Positions 126 to 32,150 of a stretch of 64,000 nucleotides of DNA are shown here, one piece after another. Below the pieces are notes generated by a model. That model did no database searches and was not told where the DNA came from. It was given only the letters and a program-made list of their open reading frames with translations. This stretch comes from Kaistella flava (ex Peng et al. 2021). Lineage in GTDB: Bacteria; Bacteroidota; Bacteroidia; Flavobacteriales; Weeksellaceae. A program made the position numbers and the translations under genes. Location: positions 1,364,001 to 1,428,000 of the forward strand of contig NZ_CP040442.1 in NCBI RefSeq assembly GCF_015191005.1, read 5' to 3'. Positions within the stretch are counted from its first letter, which is position 1. Every line of letters starts with the position of its first letter.

Positions 126-1216
126 AATATTCCTTTGGTACTTGGGATGGAGAAATTGTTATCATCTCGCTTCACTGCATCCCGTAAAACTTTTGCAAAT
201 GCTTTAAAAATCGATTCAATTTTGTGGTGTTCATTCTCACCTTCACACTGAATATTGAGATTGCATTTTCCAGTGTCCGTAAATGATTTAAAGAAGTGAT
301 AAAAAAGTTCTGTCGGAACATCGCCAATTCTTTCTCTTTTAAAATCAACATTCCAAACTAACCAGTTTCGTCCACCAAAATCTAATGCGACTTGCGCCAG
401 ACAATCGTCCATTGGCAAAGCAAAAGCGTAACGTTCAATTCCTTTCTTTAAACCTAAAGCTTGCTCAAAACAAGTCCCTAAAACCAAAGCCGTATCTTCA
501 ATGGTGTGATGTTCATCGATCTGTAAATCGCCATTAACCAAAACTTCCAAATCAAAATTCCCATGTTTTGAGATTTGTTCTAGCATGTGATCAAAGAACG
601 CCAAACCTGTATTGATATTTGCTTTTCCGCTTCCATCCAAATTCAATTCAATAGAAATTTCAGTTTCTTTGGTTTTTCGATTGACCTTTGATTTGCGCGG
701 AATCTGCTTTAAATATTGATAAATTTCGTCCCAGTTCTTAGTAGTTAAAGTTGCACCTTCAAAATTTCCTTCTGCAATATAAATAGATTGCGTTCCCAAG
801 TTTTTCGCCAATTCTATATCTGTTTTTCGATCACCGATAACAAATGAGTTTTTCAAATCGTAATTTCCATAAATGTATTTTTGAAGCAATCCGGTTCTTG
901 GTTTTCTGTTCGGTGAATTTTCTGATTCAAAACTATTATCAACTAAAATGTCAGAAAAAATAATATTTTCATTGGCTAAAGTTTTCAGCATTTTGTCCTG
1001 GGGAATTCTGAAATCTTCGTGCGGAAACGAATCCGTGCCCAAACCATCCTGATTCGTCACCATGACCAATTCGTAATCTAACTCTTTCACAATCTTGGCT
1101 AAATTCTGAATCACTTTTGGATAAAATTCTAATTTTTCTAAAGAATCTACTTGTAAATCTGTCGGCGGTTCAATAATTATCGTTCCGTCGCGGTCGATGA
1201 ATAATACTTTTTTCAT
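122..1216 (-). CDS. hisB: Bifunctional histidinol-phosphatase / imidazoleglycerol-phosphate dehydratase
   Basis: This 364-residue protein is a two-domain fusion. Residues 1-165 are a HAD phosphatase with the DxD nucleophile motif FIDRDGT (Asp8, Asp10) and a late VIGDRKTD motif near residue 126. It would dephosphorylate histidinol phosphate. Residues about 175-364 are imidazoleglycerol-phosphate dehydratase, with metal-binding segments FFDHMLEQ (207-214), HHTIED (236-241) and EHHKIES (329-335). Length and order match fused HisB. The loop that carries the structural zinc ligands (Cys-x-His and Cys-x-Cys) in E. coli HisB reads [16 protein letters not shown] here and has no cysteine or histidine. 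The gene follows hisC by 2 bp and overlaps hisH, so it belongs to the his operon. Confidence 0.95.
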
Positions 1217-18118: not shown

Positions 18119-19234
18119 TTAATGTGCTCCTTCGTGTTCGTGTTCTGTTACTGCGATTCCAATAAACAAAGCCGAAAGAACGGTAAAGATATATGCTTGT
18201 AAAGCTGCTACTAACAATTCCAATAATCCGATAAACAATCCCAATGGAACTGAAGCGAATCCTAAAAGTGGTGTTTTAAAGATAAAGATCAATGACATAA
18301 TCGCCAATACCATAATGTGACCTGCAGTAATATTTGCAAAGAGACGCATCATTAAGGCAAATGGTTTTGTGAACACTCCAATGATTTCAATTGGAACCAT
18401 GATTGGGTATAATAATAAAGGTACTGGTGGCATGAAAATATGTTTCCAATAATCTTTGTTGGCACTGAAGATGGTAATTAATAAAGTAATAATTGCTAAA
18501 ACCGCTGTTGTTGCGATGTTACCAGTTAAGTTATAACCGAAAGGCGCAAATGGAATTAAACCAAACATATTATTAAACCAGATAAAGAAAAATACGGTTA
18601 ATAAATAAGGCATGAATTTTTTATACTTTTTCGCTCCAATATTTGGTATTGCTACTTCATCTCTAATGAAAATAATAATCGGCTCCATAAATCTTCCAAA
18701 TCCACTAGGAACTAAGGTTTTCGCATATCCTCTTGCCATTCCAATAAAAACAAGGAACATAAAGAAGATTGAAATAAAGATCGCTGCTACGTTTTTCGTA
18801 ATCGAAAAATCATAAAATGCGTTGTCTGAATTATGTTTTCCGCTTAAGACAGAGAATAATTTTGCTTGAACTAAACCCTGAGTTGAAGTTACAACCCCAT
18901 GATCTAAAGTATAACCGTCATGTTCATGACCATGTGCAATTGCACTTGACATCATCATATGAAGTCCGTTTTTGTCTTTAACAATAACTGGTAATGGAAT
19001 AGAAACGTGGTGTTCTTCCGGCGTTCCTTCATTTAATGTTAAGATATGCCACTCATTAGAATCACTAATGTGTTCCATAATCATCTCTTTTGCATTAAAT
19101 TTTTGATTATCATCTACAATTTTCTGTTCTAAACTTTCGGTAGATGTAGCTTCAACTTCTTGCTGTGCATAAGTGAAAACACTTGAAAGCGTAAGAAATA
19201 AAACGAAAAATAAAGAAGAAATTCTCTTGTTCAT
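18119..19234 (-). CDS. atpB: F-type ATP synthase subunit a with extended N-terminal region
   Basis: The 371-residue protein provides the ion half-channels of Fo. The core from about 145 to 365 has the usual hydrophobic helices and the essential arginine in MMRLFANITAGH (Arg297). Ahead of it is a cleavable-looking signal sequence (1-24, ending TYAQQ) and about 120 residues rich in histidine and acidic residues (for example HGHEHDGYTL). E. coli subunit a has 271 residues and no such extension. Extended AtpB forms are common in Bacteroidota as far as I recall. The protein also ends in a His/Glu-rich tail (TEHEHEGAH). A well-formed promoter lies just upstream. Confidence 0.95.
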   Translation of the reverse strand: MNKRISSLFFVLFLTLSSVFTYAQQEVEATSTESLEQKIVDDNQKFNAKEMIMEHISDSNEWHILTLNEGTPEEHHVSIPLPVIVKDKNGLHMMMSSAIAHGHEHDGYTLDHGVVTSTQGLVQAKLFSVLSGKHNSDNAFYDFSITKNVAAIFISIFFMFLVFIGMARGYAKTLVPSGFGRFMEPIIIFIRDEVAIPNIGAKKYKKFMPYLLTVFFFIWFNNMFGLIPFAPFGYNLTGNIATTAVLAIITLLITIFSANKDYWKHIFMPPVPLLLYPIMVPIEIIGVFTKPFALMMRLFANITAGHIMVLAIMSLIFIFKTPLLGFASVPLGLFIGLLELLVAALQAYIFTVLSALFIGIAVTEHEHEGAH

Positions 19235-19254
19235 AGGTCAAATTTATCGGTTTG

Positions 19255-19285
19255 CAAATATATTGAATTTATTAAAACCCACCAA
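19255..19285 (-). promoter_or_regulatory. Promoter of atpB (TTG-N20-TATATTTG)
   Basis: The minus strand has TTG at 19285-19283 and TATATTTG at 19262-19255, separated by 20 nt. This is a near-perfect Bacteroidota promoter, 20 nt ahead of the atpB ATG. It would drive atpB-E-F-H-A-G. Confidence 0.75.
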
Positions 19286-19314
19286 TATTAAAAATTGATT
19301 TTTATCAGTTATTT

Positions 19315-19584
19315 TCAGGAACGGTTTAATAATCGAATTACTTTGAAATATAAAGCAAAAGAAGTCACCAAAAAGGCTCCGATAATAAACAGGAAATTAG
19401 TTTGATTTGCTTCTAATTTAATCAACCAATACCCTACCCAGATAATATCTTTAAAGATATTGATCACCAAAAATAACATGGCAGGATTTTCTGTTTTCAT
19501 CAAATATTTTTTAAAAATGTAAAAGATAATTACATTTAAAACTGCTGCAGAAACAAATACTAAAACTAAATTGGTCATATTCAT
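19315..19584 (-). CDS. Small four-segment membrane protein upstream of atpB (AtpI-like position)
   Basis: The 89-residue protein has about three hydrophobic segments (LVLVFVSAAVLNVIIFYIF, PAMLFLVINIFKDIIWVGYW, FLFIIGAFLVTSFALYF). It sits directly ahead of atpB on the same strand, the place where atpI or similar small assembly genes usually occur. I see no diagnostic AtpI motif, so the link to ATP synthase assembly rests on position. A TATTTTTG box lies four bases ahead of the first ATG. A second ATG two codons later is an alternative start. Confidence 0.6.
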   Translation of the reverse strand: MNMTNLVLVFVSAAVLNVIIFYIFKKYLMKTENPAMLFLVINIFKDIIWVGYWLIKLEANQTNFLFIIGAFLVTSFALYFKVIRLLNRS

Positions 19585-19588
19585 GCCG

Positions 19589-19596
19589 CAAAAATA
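19589..19596 (-). promoter_or_regulatory. -7 box TATTTTTG four bases ahead of the ATG
   Basis: The minus strand reads TATTTTTG-CGGC-ATG. If transcription starts about five bases beyond the box, as in other Bacteroidota promoters, the mRNA would have almost no leader. No clear -33 TTG is present. Confidence 0.45.
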
Positions 19597-19847
19597 AGCA
19601 ACTTTAGAATAATTGAACGAAATTCTTTGTTTTCAAATTTTAAAATGAGCAAAAGGCAAAAGGTTTTTTAAAACCAAATAACTATCAGCAACTTCACAGA
19701 TACTCTTATTTTAATTTCTTTAATAAAACAAAACGCCGGATTCAGTAGTGTTTTTTCACGAAAAGTACTTTAATTACTATATTTAGATGTAATATTCATT
19801 ATTTTAGTTGTTTAAATTTTTATTTATCATAAACTAAAATCTTGAAT

Positions 19848-20741
19848 ATGTTAAAGAGAACCATCTTATTAGAAAACAAAACGTCGGTAAGTACGAAAAA
19901 TTTGCAAATAGTAATTCAAACAGAATTGCGAGAAAGTACGATTCCTGCGGAAGATATTGGTTACTTGGTCATCGATCATCCACAAGTTTTTGTGAGCATT
20001 CCTGCAATGAATTTATTGATAGAAAATAATGCGGCAATTGTTGTTTGTGGAAACAATCATTTACCGAACGGAATGTTTCTAAACCTCAACAGCCATCACA
20101 TTCAACAGGAGGTTTTCCGAAACCAAATGGAAGCGAGTTTACCTTTGAAAAAGCAACTATGGCAACAAACTGCTATGGAAAAAATTAGAAATCAGGGACA
20201 ATTATTAGAACGAATAACAGGCGAAAAGAACAGTTTTGAATTTTTAATGTCCAAGGTTTTGAGTGGTGACACCTCTAATATGGAAGGTGTTGCCGCCAAT
20301 CTTTACTGGAAAACATTCTTTGAACATTGTGATATTAAAGTCAAAAGAGAACGTTTTGGAAATTTTCCTAATAATTTCTTGAATTATGGTTATGCTATTC
20401 TGCGAGCTGCAACAGCAAGATCTCTTTCTGGAAGCGGACTTCTCAATACTTTAGGAATTCATCATAGAAACAAATACAATGCTTATGCGTTGGCAGATGA
20501 TATGATGGAACCTTACCGACCGATGGTTGATGAAAAAGTTTTCGAATTAATTGCAATGAGTGAGGAGCAAGAACTTACTACCTCAATAAAGGCTGAGTTT
20601 CTAAAAATCCTGACACAAACCGTGTACTTCAACGAAGAGAAAAGTCCACTTATGATTGGTTTGCAAAGAAGCGCAACTTCTTTGCAGCAATGTTTTACGG
20701 GAGAAAAGAAAAAAATTAATTATCCAAAATTATGGATCTAA
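19848..20741 (+). CDS. cas1: CRISPR-associated endonuclease Cas1, type II-C
   Basis: This 297-residue integrase works with Cas2 to insert new spacers. I chose the ATG at 19848 (MLKRTILLENKTSVS); a TTG two codons upstream is possible. Likely metal ligands are Glu146 in SNMEGVAANLYW, His205/206 in LGIHHRNKYNAY and Glu221 in LADDMMEPYRP, the standard Cas1 spacing. Length and sequence style fit the short type II Cas1 proteins. It overlaps cas2 by 10 bp. No csn2 or cas4 is present, which defines subtype II-C. It is transcribed towards the array, opposite to cas9. Confidence 0.96.
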   Translation: MLKRTILLENKTSVSTKNLQIVIQTELRESTIPAEDIGYLVIDHPQVFVSIPAMNLLIENNAAIVVCGNNHLPNGMFLNLNSHHIQQEVFRNQMEASLPLKKQLWQQTAMEKIRNQGQLLERITGEKNSFEFLMSKVLSGDTSNMEGVAANLYWKTFFEHCDIKVKRERFGNFPNNFLNYGYAILRAATARSLSGSGLLNTLGIHHRNKYNAYALADDMMEPYRPMVDEKVFELIAMSEEQELTTSIKAEFLKILTQTVYFNEEKSPLMIGLQRSATSLQQCFTGEKKKINYPKLWI

Positions 20742-21061
20742 ACGGCTACCGAATTATGTGGATTTTTGTTTTTTTTGATTTACCGACAGAAACTAAAAAA
20801 GACCGACATAATGCGTCGAAATTTAGAACCAATTTATTGAAAGATGGTTTTAATATGATGCAATATTCTGTTTACATGCGACATTGTGCAAGCAGTGAAA
20901 GTGCAGATGTGCACGAAAAGCGGGTTCAACTATTACTTCCACCATTTGGTAAAGTGAGTGTTTTACGAATAACAGATAAACAATTTGGAAATATTATGAA
21001 TTTTTGGGGGAAAGCAGAAGTTCCCAAACCGCCAGGCCCGGTGCAATTAGAATTATTTTAG
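20732..21061 (+). CDS. cas2: CRISPR-associated protein Cas2
   Basis: This 109-residue ferredoxin-fold protein bridges two Cas1 dimers during spacer integration. The start MDLNGYRIMWIFVFFDLPTE has the first beta strand with the conserved aspartate (FFDLP, Asp16), followed by LLKDGFNMMQYSVYMR and a C-terminal PPGPVQLELF. The type II Cas2 pattern is clear. It overlaps cas1, and its stop is five bases ahead of a terminator hairpin, then about 50 bp to the first repeat. Confidence 0.95.
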   Translation: MDLNGYRIMWIFVFFDLPTETKKDRHNASKFRTNLLKDGFNMMQYSVYMRHCASSESADVHEKRVQLLLPPFGKVSVLRITDKQFGNIMNFWGKAEVPKPPGPVQLELF

Positions 21062-21065
21062 GAAT

Positions 21066-21117
21066 AAAAAAATGCTTCAATCTTGCTTTATCAGTGCAAA
21101 AAAGAAGCGTTTTTTTT
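21066..21117 (+). terminator. Hairpin between cas2 and the CRISPR array
   Basis: AAAAAATGCTTC (21066-21077) pairs with GAAGCGTTTTTT (21104-21115) across a 26-base loop. A T-run follows on the plus strand, and an A-run flanks the other side, so it could stop cas1-cas2 transcripts and also minus-strand array transcripts. Confidence 0.6.
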
Positions 21118-21167
21118 AACGATATTTACTTTTAATTCTTTGATTACCAGAAGGTAGCGAGCCAACT
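21118..21167. other. Short AT-rich leader-like stretch next to the first repeat
   Basis: About 50 bp separate the hairpin from the first repeat. It is AT-rich for most of its length and ends GGTAGCGAGCCAACT. If integration occurs at the cas2 side, this is the leader. No promoter matching TAnnTTTG is seen in it. Confidence 0.4.
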
Positions 21168-24100
21168 AATATCGTTCTTTCTAATCTTTAATCAAACCAC
21201 AACCTTTACGAACGATCCTGCAATCATTTTACCAATATCGTTCTTTCTAATCTTTAATCAAACCACAACAGGTCAAGTAGTTGAAGGTGATTTAGATGCA
21301 ATATCGTTCTTTCTAATCTTTAATCAAACCACAACATCAAGTTCAGTTGATGCAACAGTTTAGCAAATATCGTTCTTTCTAATCTTTAATCAAACCACAA
21401 CAAACGAAGCCGTAGTTTTAGAAAAAGTTAAAATATCGTTCTTTCTAATCTTTAATCAAACCACAACAAATTAGGTAACCAAGATAAAGGCGGTGCAAAT
21501 ATCGTTCTTTCTAATCTTTAATCAAACCACAACATCTTTGTTAAGACTGGTTCGACTCCAGTTAATATCGTTCTTTCTAATCTTTAATCAAACCACAACA
21601 AAAGAAGTACAAACTTCGAGATGATGTTAAATATCGTTCTTTCTAATCTTTAATCAAACCACAACTACCAATTACTGCGCGATCAAATAAACTTTAATAT
21701 CGTTCTTTCTAATCTTTAATCAAACCACAACAAACGAATACTGCTAAAACTCAAAAGCAAGAATATCGTTCTTTCTAATCTTTAATCAAACCACAACTAC
21801 GAAAACAATCCCTAACGATAAAGACATAATATCGTTCTTTCTAATCTTTAATCAAACCACAACCAAACGACAAAGATATTTACGTTATAGACAAATATCG
21901 TTCTTTCTAATCTTTAATCAAACCACAACATTTTCGTCGGCATTTGATACCGATATTGTAATATCGTTCTTTCTAATCTTTAATCAAACCACAACAGTAA
22001 TTGTGCTAAATACCGATGTTCCTATAATATCGTTCTTTCTAATCTTTAATCAAACCACAACTGCTAGCTTGCCGATTCCCGACTCCACCCAAATATCGTT
22101 CTTTCTAATCTTTAATCAAACCACAACAGAAAACGCAGATACAAATCATATCCGTTAAATATCGTTCTTTCTAATCTTTAATCAAACCACAACGAAGTCT
22201 TTTAGTGCTTTTTCTCGATTGTAATATCGTTCTTTCTAATCTTTAATCAAACCACAACTTGAATTACTGGTGGGAGAAGACAAAGAAAAATATCGTTCTT
22301 TCTAATCTTTAATCAAACCACAACAGCAGAGGGATTAGGCTTAATGGATGAAAAAATATCGTTCTTTCTAATCTTTAATCAAACCACAACCGAAGTCTTT
22401 CACGTAGTTGAAGGAGTTGAAATATCGTTCTTTCTAATCTTTAATCAAACCACAACTTGCAGAGATGAGAGCGGTTCATTATATCAAATATCGTTCTTTC
22501 TAATCTTTAATCAAACCACAACTCACTCACCAAATAACGACGCACCCGCTTTAATATCGTTCTTTCTAATCTTTAATCAAACCACAACTGGCGCTTTGCG
22601 ACGGCATGGTGTGGGCCGAATATCGTTCTTTCTAATCTTTAATCAAACCACAACTGAAGCGCAGTATCAAATGACTACTGATTAAATATCGTTCTTTCTA
22701 ATCTTTAATCAAACCACAACTTCATTATGCATATTAGACCATAATGGCTCAATATCGTTCTTTCTAATCTTTAATCAAACCACAACTCTGCCACAGTATT
22801 GGCAAGTAAATGAATCAATATCGTTCTTTCTAATCTTTAATCAAACCACAACTCCCGTACTGCCCGGAGCTGTAACTGGCGGAATATCGTTCTTTCTAAT
22901 CTTTAATCAAACCACAACTAAAGCAGAAGAACAAATAATAAAAGAACGAATATCGTTCTTTCTAATCTTTAATCAAACCACAACTTGATCCTGAATATGG
23001 AATAAACGTTACGAAATATCGTTCTTTCTAATCTTTAATCAAACCACAACTTAAAATCTCATTCGATGTTTCAAAATCTTAATATCGTTCTTTCTAATCT
23101 TTAATCAAACCACAACTGAAGATGTTTTAACCTCTTTATTAAAGAAATATCGTTCTTTCTAATCTTTAATCAAACCACAACTGGGATTAATGGATTGGTT
23201 TAAACCAAACAAATATCGTTCTTTCTAATCTTTAATCAAACCACAACTGAGACGTTACCTTTTTAAAATGCGAGTTAAATATCGTTCTTTCTAATCTTTA
23301 ATCAAACCACAACTAATTCTGTTTTTAATATGATTTGGCATTTAATATCGTTCTTTCTAATCTTTAATCAAACCACAACTGTTGAAGTGGTAATTGGTGA
23401 TATTGGCGGAATATCGTTCTTTCTAATCTTTAATCAAACCACAACTCTAAACTGCTCAATTGTCATTGAATGTTTAATATCGTTCTTTCTAATCTTTAAT
23501 CAAACCACAACAATCCGCAATTACAAATGTACAACAATATTAATATCGTTCTTTCTAATCTTTAATCAAACCACAACTAAAAAGCATCGCAAGTAAATTA
23601 GATGTATAATATCGTTCTTTCTAATCTTTAATCAAACCACAACCTTCCGGTGAAGTTGATTGGTCAACCTTGAAATATCGTTCTTTCTAATCTTTAATCA
23701 AACCACAACCAGTAAATATAATTGGATTTATTATTCACAAATATCGTTCTTTCTAATCTTTAATCAAACCACAACTTATAAAGACATCAACAAAACGAAC
23801 AATGAAATATCGTTCTTTCTAATCTTTAATCAAACCACAACCCATTAACTGATTGACCCAATAAGTCCTGCAATATCGTTCTTTCTAATCTTTAATCAAA
23901 CCACAACAGGCGAATAGTATCCTAATTTCCATCCATAAATATCGTTCTTTCTAATCTTTAATCAAACCACAACTCAGTGTCAAAACTTTTATTTTTCAAC
24001 TCAATATCGTTCTTTCTAATCTTTAATCAAACCACAACTCTCAACAGAAAGTAACACAGAATACAAGCAATATCGTTCTTTCTAATCTTTAATCAAACCA

Positions 24101-25421
24101 CAACTAAATTACTCATTGGTTCGTTTAAATATTAAATATCGTTCTTTCTAATCTTTAATCAAACCACAACGGATAATTTCCAACTGACATGAAGTGCGAA
24201 AATATCGTTCTTTCTAATCTTTAATCAAACCACAACAGGAAATGAAATCTCATGTATTGGGAGAAAAATATCGTTCTTTCTAATCTTTAATCAAACCACA
24301 ACACACAAGCATAGATATCCATTAAATCCAAAATATCGTTCTTTCTAATCTTTAATCAAACCACAACAGGTTTAGATGAGTTTGAAGTTATTCAGGGAAT
24401 ATCGTTCTTTCTAATCTTTAATCAAACCACAACTCTTTGTTCTTCATATCCTCCGAAATCTGTAATATCGTTCTTTCTAATCTTTAATCAAACCACAACG
24501 GTCTAATGCTTTGGCTGCTTTAGTTCAAGAATATCGTTCTTTCTAATCTTTAATCAAACCACAACCTATGCTGCTGTTGGTGCTAATTCATTTAAATATC
24601 GTTCTTTCTAATCTTTAATCAAACCACAACAGTAGCATTTAAATCAATAACGTACTCTTGAATATCGTTCTTTCTAATCTTTAATCAAACCACAACGGAA
24701 AACTATGATAAAATAAATCTTTCCATAATATCGTTCTTTCTAATCTTTAATCAAACCACAACGACCCGTGTCTTTTGCTCTACGACTTGCAAAATATCGT
24801 TCTTTCTAATCTTTAATCAAACCACAACAGAAGTCTTTCACGTAGTTGAAGGAGTTGAAATATCGTTCTTTCTAATCTTTAATCAAACCACAACGTAATT
24901 AAGTACGAAACTAGCGACTCTGAGAATATCGTTCTTTCTAATCTTTAATCAAACCACAACCGTAGAGTTCATTTCTTATATCGGTGGATTAATATCGTTC
25001 TTTCTAATCTTTAATCAAACCACAACACCAAGTCTTCCAAGTTGGTCATATTTGAGAATATCGTTCTTTCTAATCTTTAATCAAACCACAACTAATTTAG
25101 GGAAAGGAAATGTAAAGTTGGAATATCGTTCTTTCTAATCTTTAATCAAACCACAACTTTTCAGATAGGACCAATTACAACGAATTCAATATCGTTCTTT
25201 CTAATCTTTAATCAAACCACAACTATTTTGTTTTGCTAACGTAGCATCTTCAAAATATCGTTCTTTCTAATCTTTAATCAAACCACAACTAATTCAGTTC
25301 GAACCCGCTTGGTTTAAAAAATATCGTTCTTTCTAATCTTTAATCAAACCACAACTGCTGCAGGTTCAAACTCACCACTGATCCAAATATCGTTCTTTCT
25401 AATCTTCAATCAAACCACAAC
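21168..25421 (-). CRISPR. Type II-C CRISPR array, 65 repeats of 36 bp and 64 spacers
   Basis: I located 65 repeats, the first at 21168-21203 and the last at 25386-25421. Read on the minus strand the repeat starts GTTGTGGTTTGATTAAAGAT and ends AGAACGATATT, a typical II-C repeat. Spacers are 30 nt, except six of 29 nt (before the repeats at 22223, 23146, 24003, 24332, 24595 and 25122). All repeats look identical except the last, which has C for T at 25407. The variant therefore marks the cas9 side as the older end, and new spacers would enter beside cas2. Complementarity to the tracrRNA at 30211-30301 shows that crRNAs are read from the minus strand. The last repeat lies 20 bp beyond the cas9 stop with no terminator between, so read-through from cas9 is possible. 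Confidence 0.98.
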
Positions 25422-25441
25422 AACACAACTGAAGAGTTGAG

Positions 25442-28400
25442 TTAATCCTTACCAGTTATTTGGATTTTACCTTGCAAGTCAATTTTAACTTTTATTGGAT
25501 TAATTTCCTGATACTTTTTCATACTAGCAACCCTAATTTCTTCATTTTTATTTGTTACTGTAGATGCTAAGTGATGTCTAAAAGAAAAATCCCCGTCAGA
25601 TATTTTTTGAACTCTATATAAATAACTACTCAAGAAAGAACTATTCTCAAAATTATCATTATACTCTTCGTTTGAAAGTCCTAACAAAAACATATCATTT
25701 TCTTGTAATGTTAAAACTAACTCTTTCAGTTCTGGTTCTACATATTTATCTTCAGGTAGTTTATATATTTTGTCTTTATGTTTAACTCTTTCAACAACAT
25801 TCCAAAAATTTGTAATACTATCTTTCAATTCGCCATTTTCATCTTTATAAATAACAATATGATGATTTTTTCTTGGATTTACATATTGCTTAATAGTAGG
25901 TTTTAGCTGTTGGGCATTTCCAATTTCTTGAGAAACTCTAACTTTTTTTATAGGAACAGGTTCTCCTTTTTTATTTGGCAACGTGTAAAGTTGTTTAATT
26001 TGCAAACGCAACTCTATAATTTTTTCGTTTAAAGAAACCTCTTCAAAATCATTTAATTTAGATGATTTCAATTGTTTAGCTAAACTTTCAATTTCCTTAT
26101 ATATCGGGATTTCTTCTTTTCTTGCATTAATTATTATTTTCCTGATTGTAGTATCCACAATCTTATTTATCTGTTTTTCAGAAACTAAACTTTCAACAGA
26201 CTCTCTTCTATGAAACCCCTCTTTACCCTCCGGTGGTGTTCTTTTACCATAAACATTCTCCATATGCAATTGACCGCGGACGGAATCTCCCACACTTAAA
26301 TAGGTCTTTCCATTTTTTACGATCTTTTTTCTAACTTCTGTTAAAATATTCTTGTTTTGCTTAAATGAAATTAGAATACCGTTTACTACTTTTTGAGCGT
26401 CGGTATGAAAACCAGTCCAAGGCTCTATAAAGTTTAAATGTTCTTTTTCATACTCATTTCCTCTTTTTTTATTTTCAGATGATGCATTGTGTTTACTTAG
26501 TTCTTGAAAATATTTTTCTTTGGTCAATGCAATTACTATAGCGTCAATAGCGTGATGTCGATGATCTTCACGGTTTTTCTTTGGATCAAATTTAATTTCT
26601 CCTGTGTATTTATCAACCCAAACCGTACCTTCAACAAGCGTTTGTCCATCTTCTAATTTCTGCTCTTGTGTTTTAACTGGATAAAAGCCTTCAACTTTCG
26701 AAATAATATCAAACAAAACATAATACTTCCCTTGACCTTCATCCATATTAAAATGGTGTTGACTGTCCATATCTGAAACAAAAACATTTTCATTGTTTGT
26801 TGTTCCTTGAATAACAATTTGATAGTCATTTGCTAATGGTTTTTCATTCATGGCTTTGTCAAAAAGCACATTTTCAACATCAATATCAATTATTAACCAA
26901 TATTTTCCATCTTCTTGATTTGTGTCACATTGATATACATAGGAAGAAAAAACTTTTTCTTTTACTTCCCCATATAAGAGTATTTGTTTTCCATTTTTTT
27001 TAGGTTGGTCTTCTTTTGTTGGTTTCTTAAATGTTTTATTAAGTATAGTGAGTTTAGCCCAATAGGTTCCATTTTCATTACCAACTGCATTTATCATATT
27101 AAGCCCTTCAGTCTTAAATTTTTCTTTTTCTATTTTCCCTCTAACGACTATTTCCTTTTCTGATGTTTCGGGTTTTTCCTTAAACACTCGAACAATATTT
27201 TTAGGATTTGATAATTTCAATTTTGTCCAATACTCTCCATGTAGTAAATCTGGGGTTTCAATCTGAAATTTCACGTATTGTTCTTTAGACTTAAAAAGTC
27301 CTTTATCTACATTACCAAAAAGAGTTGTTTCATTTTGTAATAAATCTGGTTTTGCATTAAAAATTCTTTGTGAACTAATTGGATTTTTATCTTTATCAAA
27401 AACAACATAATGTGGAATATGTCTTTCTGCATCAATATATAAATTTGGAATATCAATTGTAAAAGCAGGTTGAAGTATATTGTTTAAACCCCACAATCTT
27501 CGCAATTCAGCCGTTAAGCTCCCTGGCATAACTCGAACATCATCACAAACTTGACTTAATATTCCTGCTGTTTTTTTACTTATATAACGAGTGTCATTTA
27601 ATTGTCTTTCGATAAAAGTGTTTTTATCAAATTTTGTCTGAGAAACAAATCTTTTTGCTTTTTGATAAGGCAAAACTTTAAACGCTCTTCTTTCAATTTC
27701 TTCCCAACTTTTTGCTCCGCCCCATAAATTGACATCTTTGTTGAGTTGATAAAATTCATAAGGTGTTCTCTCTCCTTTTAAACCATTAAATTTTGAATCA
27801 CACAACGTTTTGTTTGCAAAACTATCATCCAATGAGACACTTCTGGGAATAATATGTTCTATTTGAATTTTATTTCCTCTACCTAAAACATCTGAAATAT
27901 TGATTGTTTTATTTGTATAAGGACAAACTGGGAGAATTCCTTTTTCTTGCAATTCCTGATACAATAGAACTTTTTGAATATTTTCTCTTCCGTGGCTTAG
28001 ACCGTATTCCGTTAGTAATTGTTTTGCATTTTCATTCTTTGTCGTATTTTGAGAAATCCTATTCGTTAATTCTTGTCGTTTTGTTTTACCATTTTTTAAA
28101 TCTCTACCTAACTCAACTCTTATTTGATCAAATTTACCATGCTGAACAATTAATTCATTAACAATTCTTTTCACTTCATTCACGCCTTGCTGCACAATTG
28201 GATTTCTTAAATTTTCAATATCTCCAATTTTGTTGAACTGTTTCTTTATTTCAACTTCTTGACTGTGGTGGTACAATTTTTTAAATGAAATATCGCTTTC
28301 TACAAATCCATATTTTTTATCAATCAAATACCTTTTAATCTTTTCAATTGAGTCTCCTTCTTTATTCGTTTTATCGTAATTAATTTTTAAAATATTATTT

Positions 28401-30118
28401 TTTAATTCTTCATACTCATTAGCAAAATATTTCCATCTTTTCCCAAAAGCATTTCGTACACCTCCAAGAATAACAGCATCACTTTCTCTTTTACCTTCTT
28501 TTAAATATGGTAAAATATTCTTAATCGCTTTCAATGAAAAACTTGAATATCCCTCTTTTAAATTAATTTTGGCTATTTTATCTATTTTATCCTCTTCTAA
28601 ATTGTAGTCGTTTTGCAATATTTTAATTAAAATATCATTGTCTTCACAATAATGAAATAAATGCCAAATACGATCTATACCATATTCTATAACATCTTCT
28701 CCATTGACCTTTACTACAAATTCTTTTTCAAGTATTGATTTAGGAAATACTGAATTTAAATTTTTGGTTGTGTAGCTTCCACTTACTGAGGAATCTTTGT
28801 CATAGTTAAATGTTTCGTATTCTAATTTCAATTTTTTTTGAATTTCAGAAAACTTGAAATTAGTATCTTTTGAATTAATCAACTCTAAAACTTCTAACCT
28901 TTGAGATTCTTCAAGACGTTGTTTTTTACCATATTCTATATTATTTATAAACTTATATGCTCTAAATTGTTCAAATAATGGATGCGATAAGTGGCAAGGT
29001 GTTTTACCTTTTTGAATAAATTTTCCAAACTCATCTTTCAAATCTGGCTCGAATCTACATTTAGCTAATAATTTTTTTTGAGATTTCAAAGGTCTTTGCC
29101 AAAACAAAACACTCTCATTACTCTTAAATTTTAGATTTTCTTCTTCATCTTTTTCTATTTTACCAGCCAAAAATTCTTTTAATGGTAATTTAGTTGTCAC
29201 CTTTAATAATATTTTTTTCTTATCATCTTTTGAAAGTTCATCACTTATATATTTAATTTCTACATTTTCAGTTCCTTTTGTTAATTGAAGATGTTCGATC
29301 TTTTTAGCATTCCTTTTATTTTCGATACTACCATTAAGAAATCTTGTCTTCTCGCTCAGACATTCAACTGTTTCCAATCCTAGGTGTTTTGATTGCCGAT
29401 TCCAAATTGCTTCAAACTCTGCAACATACATATCTCTCAATGTATATCTAGATCTAACTCTTAGCTCATTACCATCTTCATCTTGAATAATTTTATAAGG
29501 TTCTCCATCTTTTGGTAAAATATGGAACAAATAATTGCCTAAAGTAGAATCCTGCAACTCTTTAAGAGTAGCATCAATTCCTTTTACGTTCTCTTTTCCT
29601 TTATAAATTGCACCATCATCTTTACCTTTCCTATTACTTAAAAATCCCCTTCGCTGAATCAAATGATATAAAACTCTACCAAATTCCAACAATGTTAAAT
29701 CCTCACGTAAAGCCCTATTACGTAGCTTATACGGATCTTGCTTTAACCATAGATTATAAGAATGACTTTTAGGAAGAAATAATTCAGGAGCCATTCTGCC
29801 TTCTTTCTTTTTTTGCTTATCCCATTTACTCCAAACATCAAGCTCATTATGCTCCAAAGGACACATTTCGAAATTAATAAGAGTTCTTAATAATTTTATT
29901 TTTCTTATTCTCTTCCTATAATATTGCTTCCTAAGTTGTCTGCTATTTCTTCTTTTCGCATTCTTACTTTCTTCTTTATCTCCATAGCCAATAGTTTTCG
30001 AAATAACTCCCTCTGGAAATATCCTTACTCCTACATCTAGAATTTCATTCTCCAAATCATCCACTATCGCCCAACCAATCGAGTTTGTTCCTAAATCTAA
30101 TCCTAAAATTTTTGCCAT
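25442..30118 (-). CDS. cas9: CRISPR-associated endonuclease Cas9, type II-C, with large insertion before RuvC-III
   Basis: The RNA-guided DNA nuclease of this locus has 1558 residues when started at ATG 30118 (MAKILGLDLGTNSIGWAIVD). Key sites are RuvC-I Asp8, an arginine-rich bridge helix near 54-78, RuvC-II Glu669 in IRVELGRDL, and HNH His755 in IEHIIPRS with Asn769 and Asn778. RuvC-III has His1188/His1189 and Asp1192 in HHAIDAIVIAL. All catalytic residues are present, so it should be active. Residues about 880-1185, between LRRLWGLN and HHAIDA, form an insertion with tandem units (separate entry). Compact II-C Cas9s such as that of Neisseria have only about ten residues there. The gene points away from the tracrRNA and towards the array. 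Confidence 0.98.
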   Translation of the reverse strand: MAKILGLDLGTNSIGWAIVDDLENEILDVGVRIFPEGVISKTIGYGDKEESKNAKRRNSRQLRKQYYRKRIRKIKLLRTLINFEMCPLEHNELDVWSKWDKQKKKEGRMAPELFLPKSHSYNLWLKQDPYKLRNRALREDLTLLEFGRVLYHLIQRRGFLSNRKGKDDGAIYKGKENVKGIDATLKELQDSTLGNYLFHILPKDGEPYKIIQDEDGNELRVRSRYTLRDMYVAEFEAIWNRQSKHLGLETVECLSEKTRFLNGSIENKRNAKKIEHLQLTKGTENVEIKYISDELSKDDKKKILLKVTTKLPLKEFLAGKIEKDEEENLKFKSNESVLFWQRPLKSQKKLLAKCRFEPDLKDEFGKFIQKGKTPCHLSHPLFEQFRAYKFINNIEYGKKQRLEESQRLEVLELINSKDTNFKFSEIQKKLKLEYETFNYDKDSSVSGSYTTKNLNSVFPKSILEKEFVVKVNGEDVIEYGIDRIWHLFHYCEDNDILIKILQNDYNLEEDKIDKIAKINLKEGYSSFSLKAIKNILPYLKEGKRESDAVILGGVRNAFGKRWKYFANEYEELKNNILKINYDKTNKEGDSIEKIKRYLIDKKYGFVESDISFKKLYHHSQEVEIKKQFNKIGDIENLRNPIVQQGVNEVKRIVNELIVQHGKFDQIRVELGRDLKNGKTKRQELTNRISQNTTKNENAKQLLTEYGLSHGRENIQKVLLYQELQEKGILPVCPYTNKTINISDVLGRGNKIQIEHIIPRSVSLDDSFANKTLCDSKFNGLKGERTPYEFYQLNKDVNLWGGAKSWEEIERRAFKVLPYQKAKRFVSQTKFDKNTFIERQLNDTRYISKKTAGILSQVCDDVRVMPGSLTAELRRLWGLNNILQPAFTIDIPNLYIDAERHIPHYVVFDKDKNPISSQRIFNAKPDLLQNETTLFGNVDKGLFKSKEQYVKFQIETPDLLHGEYWTKLKLSNPKNIVRVFKEKPETSEKEIVVRGKIEKEKFKTEGLNMINAVGNENGTYWAKLTILNKTFKKPTKEDQPKKNGKQILLYGEVKEKVFSSYVYQCDTNQEDGKYWLIIDIDVENVLFDKAMNEKPLANDYQIVIQGTTNNENVFVSDMDSQHHFNMDEGQGKYYVLFDIISKVEGFYPVKTQEQKLEDGQTLVEGTVWVDKYTGEIKFDPKKNREDHRHHAIDAIVIALTKEKYFQELSKHNASSENKKRGNEYEKEHLNFIEPWTGFHTDAQKVVNGILISFKQNKNILTEVRKKIVKNGKTYLSVGDSVRGQLHMENVYGKRTPPEGKEGFHRRESVESLVSEKQINKIVDTTIRKIIINARKEEIPIYKEIESLAKQLKSSKLNDFEEVSLNEKIIELRLQIKQLYTLPNKKGEPVPIKKVRVSQEIGNAQQLKPTIKQYVNPRKNHHIVIYKDENGELKDSITNFWNVVERVKHKDKIYKLPEDKYVEPELKELVLTLQENDMFLLGLSNEEYNDNFENSSFLSSYLYRVQKISDGDFSFRHHLASTVTNKNEEIRVASMKKYQEINPIKVKIDLQGKIQITGKD
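26606..27328 (-). repeat. Tandem ~57-residue repeats inside Cas9 (residues about 931-1171)
   Basis: Four full units and one partial unit occur in the Cas9 insertion. Each has a hydrophobic strand ending in glycine, then a charged strand, then G-x-Y-W/Y with another hydrophobic strand. The glycines are Gly935, 994, 1050, 1105 and 1164 (steps 59, 56, 55, 59). The later motifs are GEYW 961, GTYW 1017, GKYW 1071 and GKYY 1130 (steps 56, 54, 59). Examples of the first strand are TTLFGNV, IVVRGKI, ILLYGEV, IVIQGTT and TLVEGTV. Sequence between units has diverged, so the duplication is old. A beta-rich repeat domain is the inference. Confidence 0.75.
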
Positions 30119-30197
30119 GACCACTTTGTTTTTTAATAATTCTAAAAATAAGAAAAATCTAGATTGAATTTTAATAATTCATTCAAAAAATATTTTA

Positions 30198-30205
30198 TAT
30201 ATTTG
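30198..30205 (+). promoter_or_regulatory. -7 box TATATTTG for the tracrRNA
   Basis: TATATTTG matches TAnnTTTG and lies six bases ahead of the estimated 5' end of the tracrRNA. A -33 TTG at the usual distance is not obvious; the nearest upstream TTG is 31 nt away. Confidence 0.5.
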
Positions 30206-30210
30206 TCTCA

Positions 30211-30301
30211 AGATAATTTTATTCTAATCTTTAATCTTATCACAATAAGGCTATATGCCGTAGATGAAAATCTTTAGTCCTGCTTCGGTGGGACTTTTTT
30301 T
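30211..30301 (+). ncRNA. tracrRNA of the type II-C system
   Basis: On the plus strand TTCTAATCTTTAATC (15 nt) is identical to the plus-strand form of the CRISPR repeat, so it is the anti-repeat. After a three-base mismatch, TCACAA matches CCACAA at five of six. Downstream lie a short GGC-TATAT-GCC hairpin (nexus), AGAT-GAAA-ATCT, and an eight-pair hairpin AGTCCTGC-TTCG-GTGGGACT followed by seven T (30276-30301), which is the terminator. A TATATTTG box precedes it. It is transcribed away from cas9 from the same intergenic region. The exact 5' end is estimated. Confidence 0.88.
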
Positions 30302-30519
30302 ATTGGTAAAATCTCTGTTTGCGATAAGAATTGAAATTTTTGAGATCCGATGAATTTTCAAAAATAAAAAACAAGTAGCGATGATGTGCAATTTCAGATT
30401 TCTAAAAGGATTCTTCGAGGAGTGAAAAAAATAATTTAGAGTTGACAAACACAATTTTTAAAACGTTTTTTTTCGGTGGGTAAAATCCGTATTTCGCTTG
30501 ATTTCTGTAATTTCATTGT

Positions 30520-30574
30520 CATGAACTCCTCATGAACTATCCATGAAGTATCCTAGGGGGAACTATGGAGTATC
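30520..30574. repeat. Three tandem 11-bp units plus a related fourth
   Basis: CATGAACTCCT (30520-30530), CATGAACTATC (30531-30541) and CATGAAGTATC (30542-30552) follow one another without gaps. After CTAGGGGGAA comes CTATGGAGTATC (30563-30574). The 11-bp period is close to one DNA helical turn, which suits a binding site array, but nothing identifies a regulator. Confidence 0.55.
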
Positions 30575-30752
30575 CGGGAAGGATCTTCTGACGATTTTTT
30601 TCAGTGACCCGTCCGAAATAACAGTAAGAATTGTGCAAAAAATGACACTTTAATTCAATCAATAATCCCAATTGATTTGCATTGTGTGAAATTTTGGTAA
30701 CTATCTACTTCTCTTTACCAAAATTTCAATTTTAAATCCGCAAATATTTCCG

Positions 30753-30760
30753 TATTTTTG
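30753..30760 (+). promoter_or_regulatory. -7 box TATTTTTG for ffh
   Basis: TATTTTTG matches TAnnTTTG and lies 19 nt ahead of the ffh ATG. A -33 TTG is not clear. Confidence 0.5.
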
Positions 30761-30779
30761 CAAATCTTAAAGATAAATT

Positions 30780-32150
30780 ATGTTCAATAGCTTACAGGAT
30801 AAATTAGACAAAGCGCTTCAGAATATTTCAGGACGCGGGAAAATTTCAGAAATCAACGTTGCAGAAACGGTAAAGGAAATTCGCCGTGCGTTGGTTGATG
30901 CCGACGTTAATTACAAAGTAGCGAAAGACCTCACCAAGCGTGTTCAGGACAAAGCACTCGGTCAAAATGTATTGACCAGTTTAACGCCGGGACAGTTAAT
31001 GACCAAAATCGTCCACGACGAATTGGTAGAATTAATGGGAAGCACGCATGAAGGAATTAATCTTTCTGGCAAACCAAGTGTAATCTTAATTGCAGGTTTA
31101 CAAGGTTCTGGTAAAACAACTTTTTCTGGAAAATTAGCGAACTATTTAAAACAAAAAAGAAATAAAAAACCACTTTTGGTGGCGTGTGACGTTTACAGAC
31201 CAGCTGCAATTGAGCAGTTGAAAGTATTGGGATCACAAACAGGAATTCCTGTTTATACTGAAGAAGGCGCCTTAAATCCTTCATCTATTGCAGAAAATGC
31301 AGTAAAATTTGCGAAAGAGAATGGTCACGATGTTGTGATCGTGGATACTGCAGGACGTTTGGCTGTTGATGAAGCGATGATGAACGAGATTAAATCGATT
31401 CATTATTTCATCAAACCAGAAGAAACGCTTTTCGTAGTGGATTCAATGACGGGACAAGATGCCGTGAATACTGCTAAGGCCTTTAACGATGCCCTGAATT
31501 TCGACGGAGTTGTTCTTACGAAATTAGATGGTGATACGCGAGGTGGAGCAGCATTAACAATTCGTTCGGTAGTAGAAAAACCAATTAAGTTTATTTCTAC
31601 CGGTGAAAAAATGGAAGCACTTGATGTTTTCTATCCGGAAAGGATGGCGGATCGTATTCTTGGAATGGGTGATGTTGTTTCCTTAGTAGAAAGAGCGCAG
31701 GAGCAATTTGACGAAGAAGAAGCTAAAAAACTTCATAAAAAAATTGCCAAAAATGAATTTGGTTTTGATGATTTCTTAAAACAAATCAATCAGATCAAAA
31801 AGATGGGTAATATGAAAGATTTGATGGGAATGATTCCAGGAGTTGGCAAAGCGATTAAAGATGTAGATATTCAAGATGACGCTTTCAAACACATCGAAGC
31901 GATTATTCATTCGATGACGCCGGAAGAAAGAAGAAGACCTTCTATCATTAATACTCAGAGAAAAAACAGAATTGCAAAAGGTGCCGGAAGAAAAATTGAA
32001 GATGTAAATGCTTTGATGAAACAATTCGATCAAATGGGCAAAATGATGAAGATGATGCAAGGACCACAAGGAAAACAGATGATGGAAATGATGAGTAAAG
32101 GAATGCCTAAAGGAGCAGGAATGCCTGGTGGTAACTTATTTGGAAGATAA
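30780..32150 (+). CDS. ffh: Signal recognition particle protein Ffh (SRP54)
   Basis: The 456-residue GTPase binds 4.5S RNA and signal sequences for co-translational membrane targeting. The N domain (1-90) precedes the G domain with GLQGSGKTTFSGKLA (P-loop), DTAGRL and TKLDGDTRGGAAL. The C-terminal M domain (from about 300) is methionine-rich, with a helix-turn-helix read as MTPEERRRPSIINTQRKNRIAKGAG and a Met-rich end (KMMKMMQGPQGKQMMEMM). Length and domains are typical. It is a single-gene unit with a terminator after it. Confidence 0.97.
   Translation: MFNSLQDKLDKALQNISGRGKISEINVAETVKEIRRALVDADVNYKVAKDLTKRVQDKALGQNVLTSLTPGQLMTKIVHDELVELMGSTHEGINLSGKPSVILIAGLQGSGKTTFSGKLANYLKQKRNKKPLLVACDVYRPAAIEQLKVLGSQTGIPVYTEEGALNPSSIAENAVKFAKENGHDVVIVDTAGRLAVDEAMMNEIKSIHYFIKPEETLFVVDSMTGQDAVNTAKAFNDALNFDGVVLTKLDGDTRGGAALTIRSVVEKPIKFISTGEKMEALDVFYPERMADRILGMGDVVSLVERAQEQFDEEEAKKLHKKIAKNEFGFDDFLKQINQIKKMGNMKDLMGMIPGVGKAIKDVDIQDDAFKHIEAIIHSMTPEERRRPSIINTQRKNRIAKGAGRKIEDVNALMKQFDQMGKMMKMMQGPQGKQMMEMMSKGMPKGAGMPGGNLFGR

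Follow-up and report, generated by a model that had tools for sequence, protein, structure and literature searches.

The stretch of DNA studied here, which we call the window, is a segment of 64,000 nucleotides from Kaistella flava (ex Peng et al. 2021) (contig NZ_CP040442.1, positions 1,364,001 to 1,428,000). Between the gene of the ATP-synthase A chain (18119-19234) and ffh (at 30780) lies a II-C-like CRISPR locus, whose Cas9 contains a large insert just ahead of its last catalytic motif. This Cas9 is the only one recovered from the 3.72-Mb genome when it serves as query. The parts of the locus, in coordinates of the window, are:

19842..20741, + strand: cas1 (PF01867, 91.7 bits)
20732..21061, + strand: cas2 (PF09827, 63.1 bits)
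21168..25421, - strand: CRISPR array, whose repeat reads GTTGTGG... on that strand; 65 repeats of 36 nucleotides, with spacers of ~30 nucleotides
25442..30124, - strand: cas9, 1560 amino acids counted from a GTG (TIGR01865, 502.5 bits for a cut-off of 100; Pfam RuvC_III and HNH_4)
30223..30299, + strand: probable trans-activating CRISPR RNA (tracrRNA), with anti-repeat, AAGGC...GCC stem, and terminator-like hairpin with a T run

The true start of cas9 is likely the ATG at 30118, two codons inside the GTG open reading frame (ORF), which yields a protein of 1558 residues; the database copy of this protein, P0002, also has 1558. We number residues from the GTG: the anchors LRRLWGLN and HHAIDA are then at 874-881 and 1190-1195. 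Counted from the ATG they fall at 872-879 and 1188-1193, the numbers given by the initial annotation. The junction between these two anchors is 308 residues long, and most of it is occupied by the following elements:

26582..27472, - strand: whole insert, residues 885-1181 (~297 residues), five beta units; compact relatives have a junction of 15 residues instead
27272..27439, - strand: unit A, residues 896-951, degenerate, with HYVV in place of GxYW (hhalign scores to B-E 34.7-53.8)
27104..27271, - strand: unit B, residues 952-1007, with GEYW (hhalign)
26942..27103, - strand: unit C, residues 1008-1061, with GTYW, basic (hhalign)
26768..26941, - strand: unit D, residues 1062-1119, with GKYW, strongly acidic (hhalign)
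26582..26767, - strand: unit E, residues 1120-1181, with GKYY, continuing into FDPKKNRxDHRHHAIDA (hhalign)

The unit has a pattern of ~57 residues: a GxYW strand, then an LxGxV strand, then GxF. The motif GxYW/Y occurs at 963, 1019, 1073 and 1132, and the four units that contain it were compared with hhalign, using an alignment of 120 sequences. Since the E-values of two-profile hhalign comparisons are uncalibrated, the yardstick is a set of 22 control windows from the same Cas9. All six pairs of units score between 29.9 and 62.4 over 46-54 columns; the maximum is 16.2 for a unit against a control (n=88), and 22.7 for two controls (n=231). When the units are cut from GxYW to GxF, the ten pairs drawn from A-E score 34.3-68.0, against 24.05 for the best control; a higher control score of 49.9, for unit A against window 856-912, is excluded because that window overlaps unit A by 17 columns.

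The initial annotation, which had described tandem repeats of ~57 residues at this junction, in four or five copies, is thus borne out, and five is the better count. Its coordinates, 26606-27328, lie inside the insert (residues 933-1173) and miss its full extent, as unit A starts earlier, with HYVVFD...GNVDKGLF. In an early-branching Cas9, recorded both as L076 and as P0164, all five units have the motif [GQ]KYW, and unit A has a canonical GKYW; for this reason we read unit A of the window lineage, on sequence, as a worn copy. An AlphaFold2 model of the insert is a repetitive, all-beta domain (pLDDT, the predicted local distance difference test, of 87), rather than a single non-repetitive fold. 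The idea that there is no repeat domain, the pattern being due to chance, a frameshift or an assembly error, has a negligible probability: 168 proteins match the insert at E<=1e-3, 196 of 351 Cas9 junctions are 303-344 residues long, and the unit scores are far above those of the controls.

The insert was first placed between HNH and RuvC-III. However, PF18541 matches the window Cas9 in two stretches, and the one that follows the insert starts at position 82 of the 179 of the profile: the insert seems, from this alignment, to sit within the RuvC-III segment. The nuclease residues, said to be intact, are so: D10, ELGRD from 671, EHIIP from 756 and HHAIDA from 1190 are all present, and the columns of the RuvC-II E, the HNH E/H and the RuvC-III H/H/D are invariant in an alignment of 69 Cas9 rows. 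The HNH motif (residues 755-760) reads EHIIP, with a glutamate at the first position, where many Cas9s have an aspartate. The insert was also held to explain most of the extra length of the protein. Compared with L002 and L003, two Cas9s of 1131 residues and thus 429 shorter, the junction adds 293 residues, about two thirds of the difference.

How long is this junction in other Cas9s? We measured it by alignment columns between LRxxWGLN and HHAIDA in 351 Cas9s, one of 352 not spanning the junction; the set excludes loci L033-L060 as well as identical copies and repeat records of the same protein. There are 66 junctions shorter than 20 residues, 53 of 20-59, 2 of 61, 32 of 70-75, 2 of 82-84, 195 of 303-321 and one of 344. 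None is found from 85 to 302 residues, a gap that could close on wider sampling, as the searches behind the collection favour this clade, with 120 of 168 insert matches and 120 of 2026 further matches listed. Removing near-copies at 97% leaves 340 distinct proteins, with 184 junctions of 303-321 residues, 1 of 344, and still none at 85-302. Junctions of 15-17 residues contain no unit, those of 70-75 contain one, and those of 303-344 contain five. The number is constant in the last class, with five units throughout and no variation seen within the clade. The initial annotation had suggested comparing Bacteroidota Cas9s for clade and unit number: the insert marks one clade, whose relatives have one unit or none, and the number does not vary among the five-unit Cas9s seen.

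The one-unit junctions share the pattern DGEY(L/W)AA.D ... KKG...GNV..G.FYP.K.RDDHR. To keep the flanking anchors from producing the match, a profile of 33 such rows (32 distinct) was trimmed at both ends. Its scores are 32.2 for unit A, 35.5 for B and 33.1 for C; the best of 22 controls reaches 14.35. With smaller alignments, ten one-unit against thirteen five-unit sequences, the match has a probability of 82.7 and an E-value of 9.4e-06. These comparisons show homology between the single unit and the repeats, the evidence being weak for D and E by themselves.

Phylogenies computed apart from the junction agree with this relation. In a FastTree tree of 135 Cas9s, built without the junction columns, all 50 five-unit rows (46 distinct proteins) form one group with support 0.988. 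Nearest to it branches a one-unit pair, P0128 and P0130 (0.978), followed by P0131, with one unit, together with P0134, with none. An IQ-TREE tree of 71 thinned rows, midpoint-rooted and without a distant outgroup, again groups all 35 five-unit rows (85 in the SH-like approximate likelihood ratio test, SH-aLRT), with P0128 next (95), and needs six changes of unit state, against 30.5 in shuffles. On these two trees, the five-unit state has a single origin, adjoining one-unit Cas9s, and it probably arose by amplification from one unit to five. The deep branches are weak in both trees, so that deeper down one gain of the single unit followed by several losses fits as well as several gains.

Five-unit Cas9s occur in Flavobacterium alvei, F. 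orientale (P0024, locus L062) and Halpernia humi (P0022), and in metagenome-assembled genomes mostly labelled Bacteroidales, Marinilabiliales and relatives. One of them, L074, comes from a metagenome-assembled genome labelled Neomarinimicrobiota and is nested among Bacteroidota Cas9s, either by horizontal transfer or by a binning error.

Searches for relatives of the domain outside Cas9 give nothing firm. The 307-residue insert stays below the cut-off of every Pfam-A family (best E 0.067), and the best matches by sequence to solved structures have E-values of 0.75 for the five-unit profile and 0.21 for the one-unit profile. Foldseek with the insert model returns no significant match in PDB or among viral models. 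A profile search of proteins of 145-462 residues for free-standing copies yields two matches, both with PF18541 and hence pieces of Cas9; in 395 genomes of the phylum there are two matches, one in the genome of the window and one in another, both in Cas9; and viral contigs contain no relative. No description of the insert was found in the open-access full texts among the matches listed, a scope that takes in neither subscription papers nor supplements. We regard it as highly probable that this is a repeat domain, seen here only in Cas9, at one junction of RuvC-III, in which a single unit was amplified to five in a mainly Bacteroidota lineage, with a constant number in all members seen.

As to function, one answer is that the domain does very little, as a surface duplication that is tolerated and contributes mainly bulk or stability. 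The junction does accept other inserts in other Cas9s (41-49, 61 and 82-84 residues), and the ratio of nonsynonymous to synonymous substitution rates (dN/dS) is higher in the insert, at 0.10-0.26, than in the rest of Cas9, at 0.07-0.17, in each of the six pairs that have a finite dS; eight pairs were tried, and two more distant ones were saturated. However, these ratios are well below 1 in all six pairs, which means that the insert is kept by purifying selection. The unit number is constant, and the mean pairwise identity of the insert, 0.49 in 1500 random pairs of 108 Cas9s, is comparable to that of the WED/PI region (0.50), with HNH at 0.67. A merely passive insert is quite improbable.

The other inserts at this junction are of several kinds: 82-84 residues in L029 and L031, charged and helix-like; 45-49 in L108 and L110; 61 in L129 and L134. 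They look unrelated to the units, and the RuvC-III junction looks like a general insertion point. The DPETGEVF of L108 and L110 recalls DKYTGEIKFDP, the end of unit E.

The guide RNA module bears on function as well. The window shares a stretch of 89 nucleotides, which includes the tracrRNA, without any difference with L062, which has five units, and with L003, which has none; the 77-nucleotide core of this stretch recurs in six no-unit loci (L003 included) and in one five-unit locus besides the window. Repeats are also letter-identical between five-unit and no-unit loci: that of L061 equals those of L079, L084, L085, L091, L099 and L107, that of L032 equals those of L077 and L081, and that of L063 equals that of L094. 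The repeat of the window differs from those of the no-unit loci L077 and L081 at one position of 36, and from that of L003 at two. The Cas1 proteins interleave in the same way: that of the window, whose top identity is 74%, to L061, falls in a well-supported set of 12 rows, of which no-unit loci supply nine and five-unit loci three.

Guide-RNA recognition is accordingly rejected as the most likely role of the insert, and the early suggestion of a contact with the guide is disfavoured, since a Cas9 that has no insert is paired with an identical tracrRNA; docking of Cas1 is disfavoured because the window Cas1 set spans both kinds of loci. Judging from these identities and from the interleaved Cas1s, the domain is dispensable for using this tracrRNA or this kind of repeat and of Cas1, and it probably acts after guide loading rather than in guide or Cas1 recognition. 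Exchange of Cas9 in situ is already known in Flavobacteriales, according to the consulted parts of two papers (PMC12669027, Extended Data Fig. 9; PMC10309648). Here, the Cas9s exchanged on one module differ, by their sequences, in a whole five-unit domain.

Such an exchange of Cas9s with and without the domain is what pressure from inhibitors would be expected to produce, and suggests another function: the arm formed by the units would be a protein interface that binds to itself, giving a dimer, or to a host factor, or that blocks anti-CRISPR proteins of flavobacterial phages. The repeats offer a predicted all-beta surface, on which aromatic and glycine residues are conserved, and this would suit that role. 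However, both kinds of Cas9 are accompanied by Cas1s from a single supported set, and no accessory gene was found to mark the five-unit loci in a comparison of 18 of them with 23 no-unit loci, with 20 gene groups listed; about five of the 18 have little flank and test little (L066, L070, L073 and L076 have little or none, L032 has 1.5 kb a side). The groups present in at least 3 of the 18 five-unit loci, beyond cas9, cas1, cas2 and array ORFs, are largely short ORFs that lie within cas9 or run antisense to it, classed by position and length; one group, in 4 loci, is transposase-like. We consider the protein interface unlikely.

Charge leads to the explanation that we favour. Over the 108 Cas9s, the insert has a net charge of -2.6 per 100 residues, and is the sole net-negative region tabulated; unit C has +8.8 and unit D -16.0, with slightly different unit borders. 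A second addition to the protein, in the REC lobe, has +8.3:

29117..29383, - strand: REC addition, residues 248-336, ~60 extra residues, basic

The segment 246-338 that contains it has a median length of 87 residues in five-unit Cas9s, 26 in no-unit and 21 in one-unit Cas9s, and the addition is present in 44 of 46 distinct five-unit proteins. The two without it are L076 (= P0164), the earliest branch, and P0156, a truncated protein whose short REC segment is uninformative; the five units may for this reason have preceded the REC addition.

It is thus tempting to conjecture the following mechanism. The units would together make up a stiff beta arm, which would project from RuvC-III immediately ahead of the HHAIDA helix, with its catalytic RuvC residues. 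Through its acidic units D and E, the arm would dock in cis on the REC lobe, where the basic addition of ~60 residues may be its docking site, and this docking would time the arrival of HNH and RuvC in their active positions. A contact of the arm with REC or HNH, and its effect on activation, are inferred from charge complementarity and from a co-occurrence that is perhaps a single event, and for that reason this functional reading is a proposal only. A cis-acting arm that docks on REC or HNH and sets nuclease activation is nevertheless the function that we prefer to its rivals, tentatively and at less than even odds. For the best explanation as a whole, history and mechanism together, we would put the probability at about 0.4.

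Several observations weigh against this explanation. All structural searches with the insert gave weak results: VIA-align returns OB/TOBE-like rows, too weak for naming a fold. The higher dN/dS of the insert in all six pairs points the same way. Several early-branching members have a unit D of only weak charge (0 to -7), and the one-unit profile scores only 22.6 and 22.7 against D and E, where unrelated pairs reach 22.7 and 24.05. Finally, L076/P0164 has five units and no REC addition, and a single gain may account for the addition, in which case its co-occurrence with the units is not independent evidence.

Another reading is that the arm acts as a clamp on DNA: lying beside the groove of RuvC and HNH, it would hold the displaced non-target strand, or the duplex distal to the protospacer adjacent motif (PAM), and thereby raise residence time or cleavage. 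We hold this to be rather unlikely. Put in general terms, the docking arm would make the insert an extra lobe made by Cas9 itself, a new beta-repeat fold so far found only in Cas9, for control in cis of nuclease activation or of DNA retention, with flavobacteria swapping Cas9s with and without it on one unchanged module; this broader picture is less likely than not. Should the arm indeed govern activation or the release of DNA, Cas9 would have in it a natural control element. Nature provides a series of none, one and five units, and Cas9s with and without the domain beside an identical tracrRNA; the function of the added domain is therefore directly testable with one guide.

The rest of the locus is simple. 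Between the ATP-synthase A-chain gene and ffh, the ORFs of at least 80 codons are one of 89 residues, cas1, cas2, cas9, two ORFs in the array, and one of 85 residues that is antisense to cas9; neither the 89-residue nor the 85-residue ORF has a Pfam match, and no csn2 or cas4 is found beside cas9, cas1 and cas2 among them. The two array ORFs (22344-22685 and 23330-23596, + strand) are rejected as genes: they consist of repeats and spacers, with the recurring ISFFLIFNQTTT, and are artefacts of the array. Of the 65 array repeats, 64 are exact, and the final one has one change. The probable tracrRNA is transcribed divergently from cas9. It reaches the gathering score of no Rfam family in a scan of positions 19000-31000, and yet its sequence is near-identical in many Flavobacteriales loci.

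How does this system compare with known ones? The Cas9/Csn1 profile scores over its curated cut-off and all four catalytic motif sets are present, as in a Type II Cas9; the locus has cas9, cas1 and cas2 only, a 36-nucleotide repeat, and a tracrRNA candidate with anti-repeat, as in II-C. The compact Bacteroidota Cas9s (L002, L003, L084 and others) have a junction of 15-16 residues, no unit, and a REC segment shorter by ~60 residues. Their lengths, taken like all those from loci as stop-to-stop open frames, are mostly 1050-1163 residues. L002 and L003 are 35-49% identical to the window Cas9 in the aligned parts, and L003 has a tracrRNA letter-identical to that of the window, with a repeat that differs at 2 of 36 positions. 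The one-unit Cas9s (P0128, P0130, P0131, L096, P0138 and others) have one homologous unit at the same junction, P0128 and P0130 being the nearest branch; they differ by a junction of 70-75 residues, a length of mostly 1140-1230, and a short REC segment. Size alone does not imply the insert: L129 and L134, with open frames of 1549 and 1580 residues, are as large and have a 61-residue junction. None of the three refuting outcomes named by the initial annotation, a lack of internal similarity, a non-repetitive fold, or a described domain of this type in all Cas9s of this size, is observed.

In PDB, the best sequence matches are CbCas9 and Nme-type Cas9s, which we take to be II-C. NmeCas9 (6kc8), whose junction has ~10 residues, shares the catalytic core, by sequence and by fold search, as do further compact II-C Cas9s, and none of these has the insert. 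CbCas9, or PcrIIC1-associated II-C Cas9 (PDB 8iyq, 8wmm, 8wr4), the best match at 1.5e-43, is a large II-C Cas9, and its anchors LKQDWGLND and HHALDA are ~50 residues apart in the alignment. Its partner is described as a PIN-domain protein (PMC13153721). The window is not of that type, as no ORF of at least 80 codons between cas1 and ffh is a candidate for a PIN-domain pcrIIC1 gene.

In F. psychrophilum, Cas9s are exchanged at one locus, as far as the consulted part of the report goes (PMC10309648), and the Fp2Cas9 of that species, a II-C protein of 1548 residues, has been studied in vitro; its HNH likewise carries a glutamate, in the consulted part of that study (PMC12609912). That glutamate is E868 there; the window Cas9 has it at residue 756, L061 at 759, and L129 and L134 at 860 and 891. 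Judged by residue number alone, Fp2Cas9 thus fits the type of L129 and L134, with its 61-residue junction, and we reject it as a five-unit Cas9 already studied. Size differences between Cas9s are usually ascribed to the REC and PAM-interacting domains; here, a large addition probably arose when one small unit, lying within the catalytic RuvC part, was amplified in tandem.
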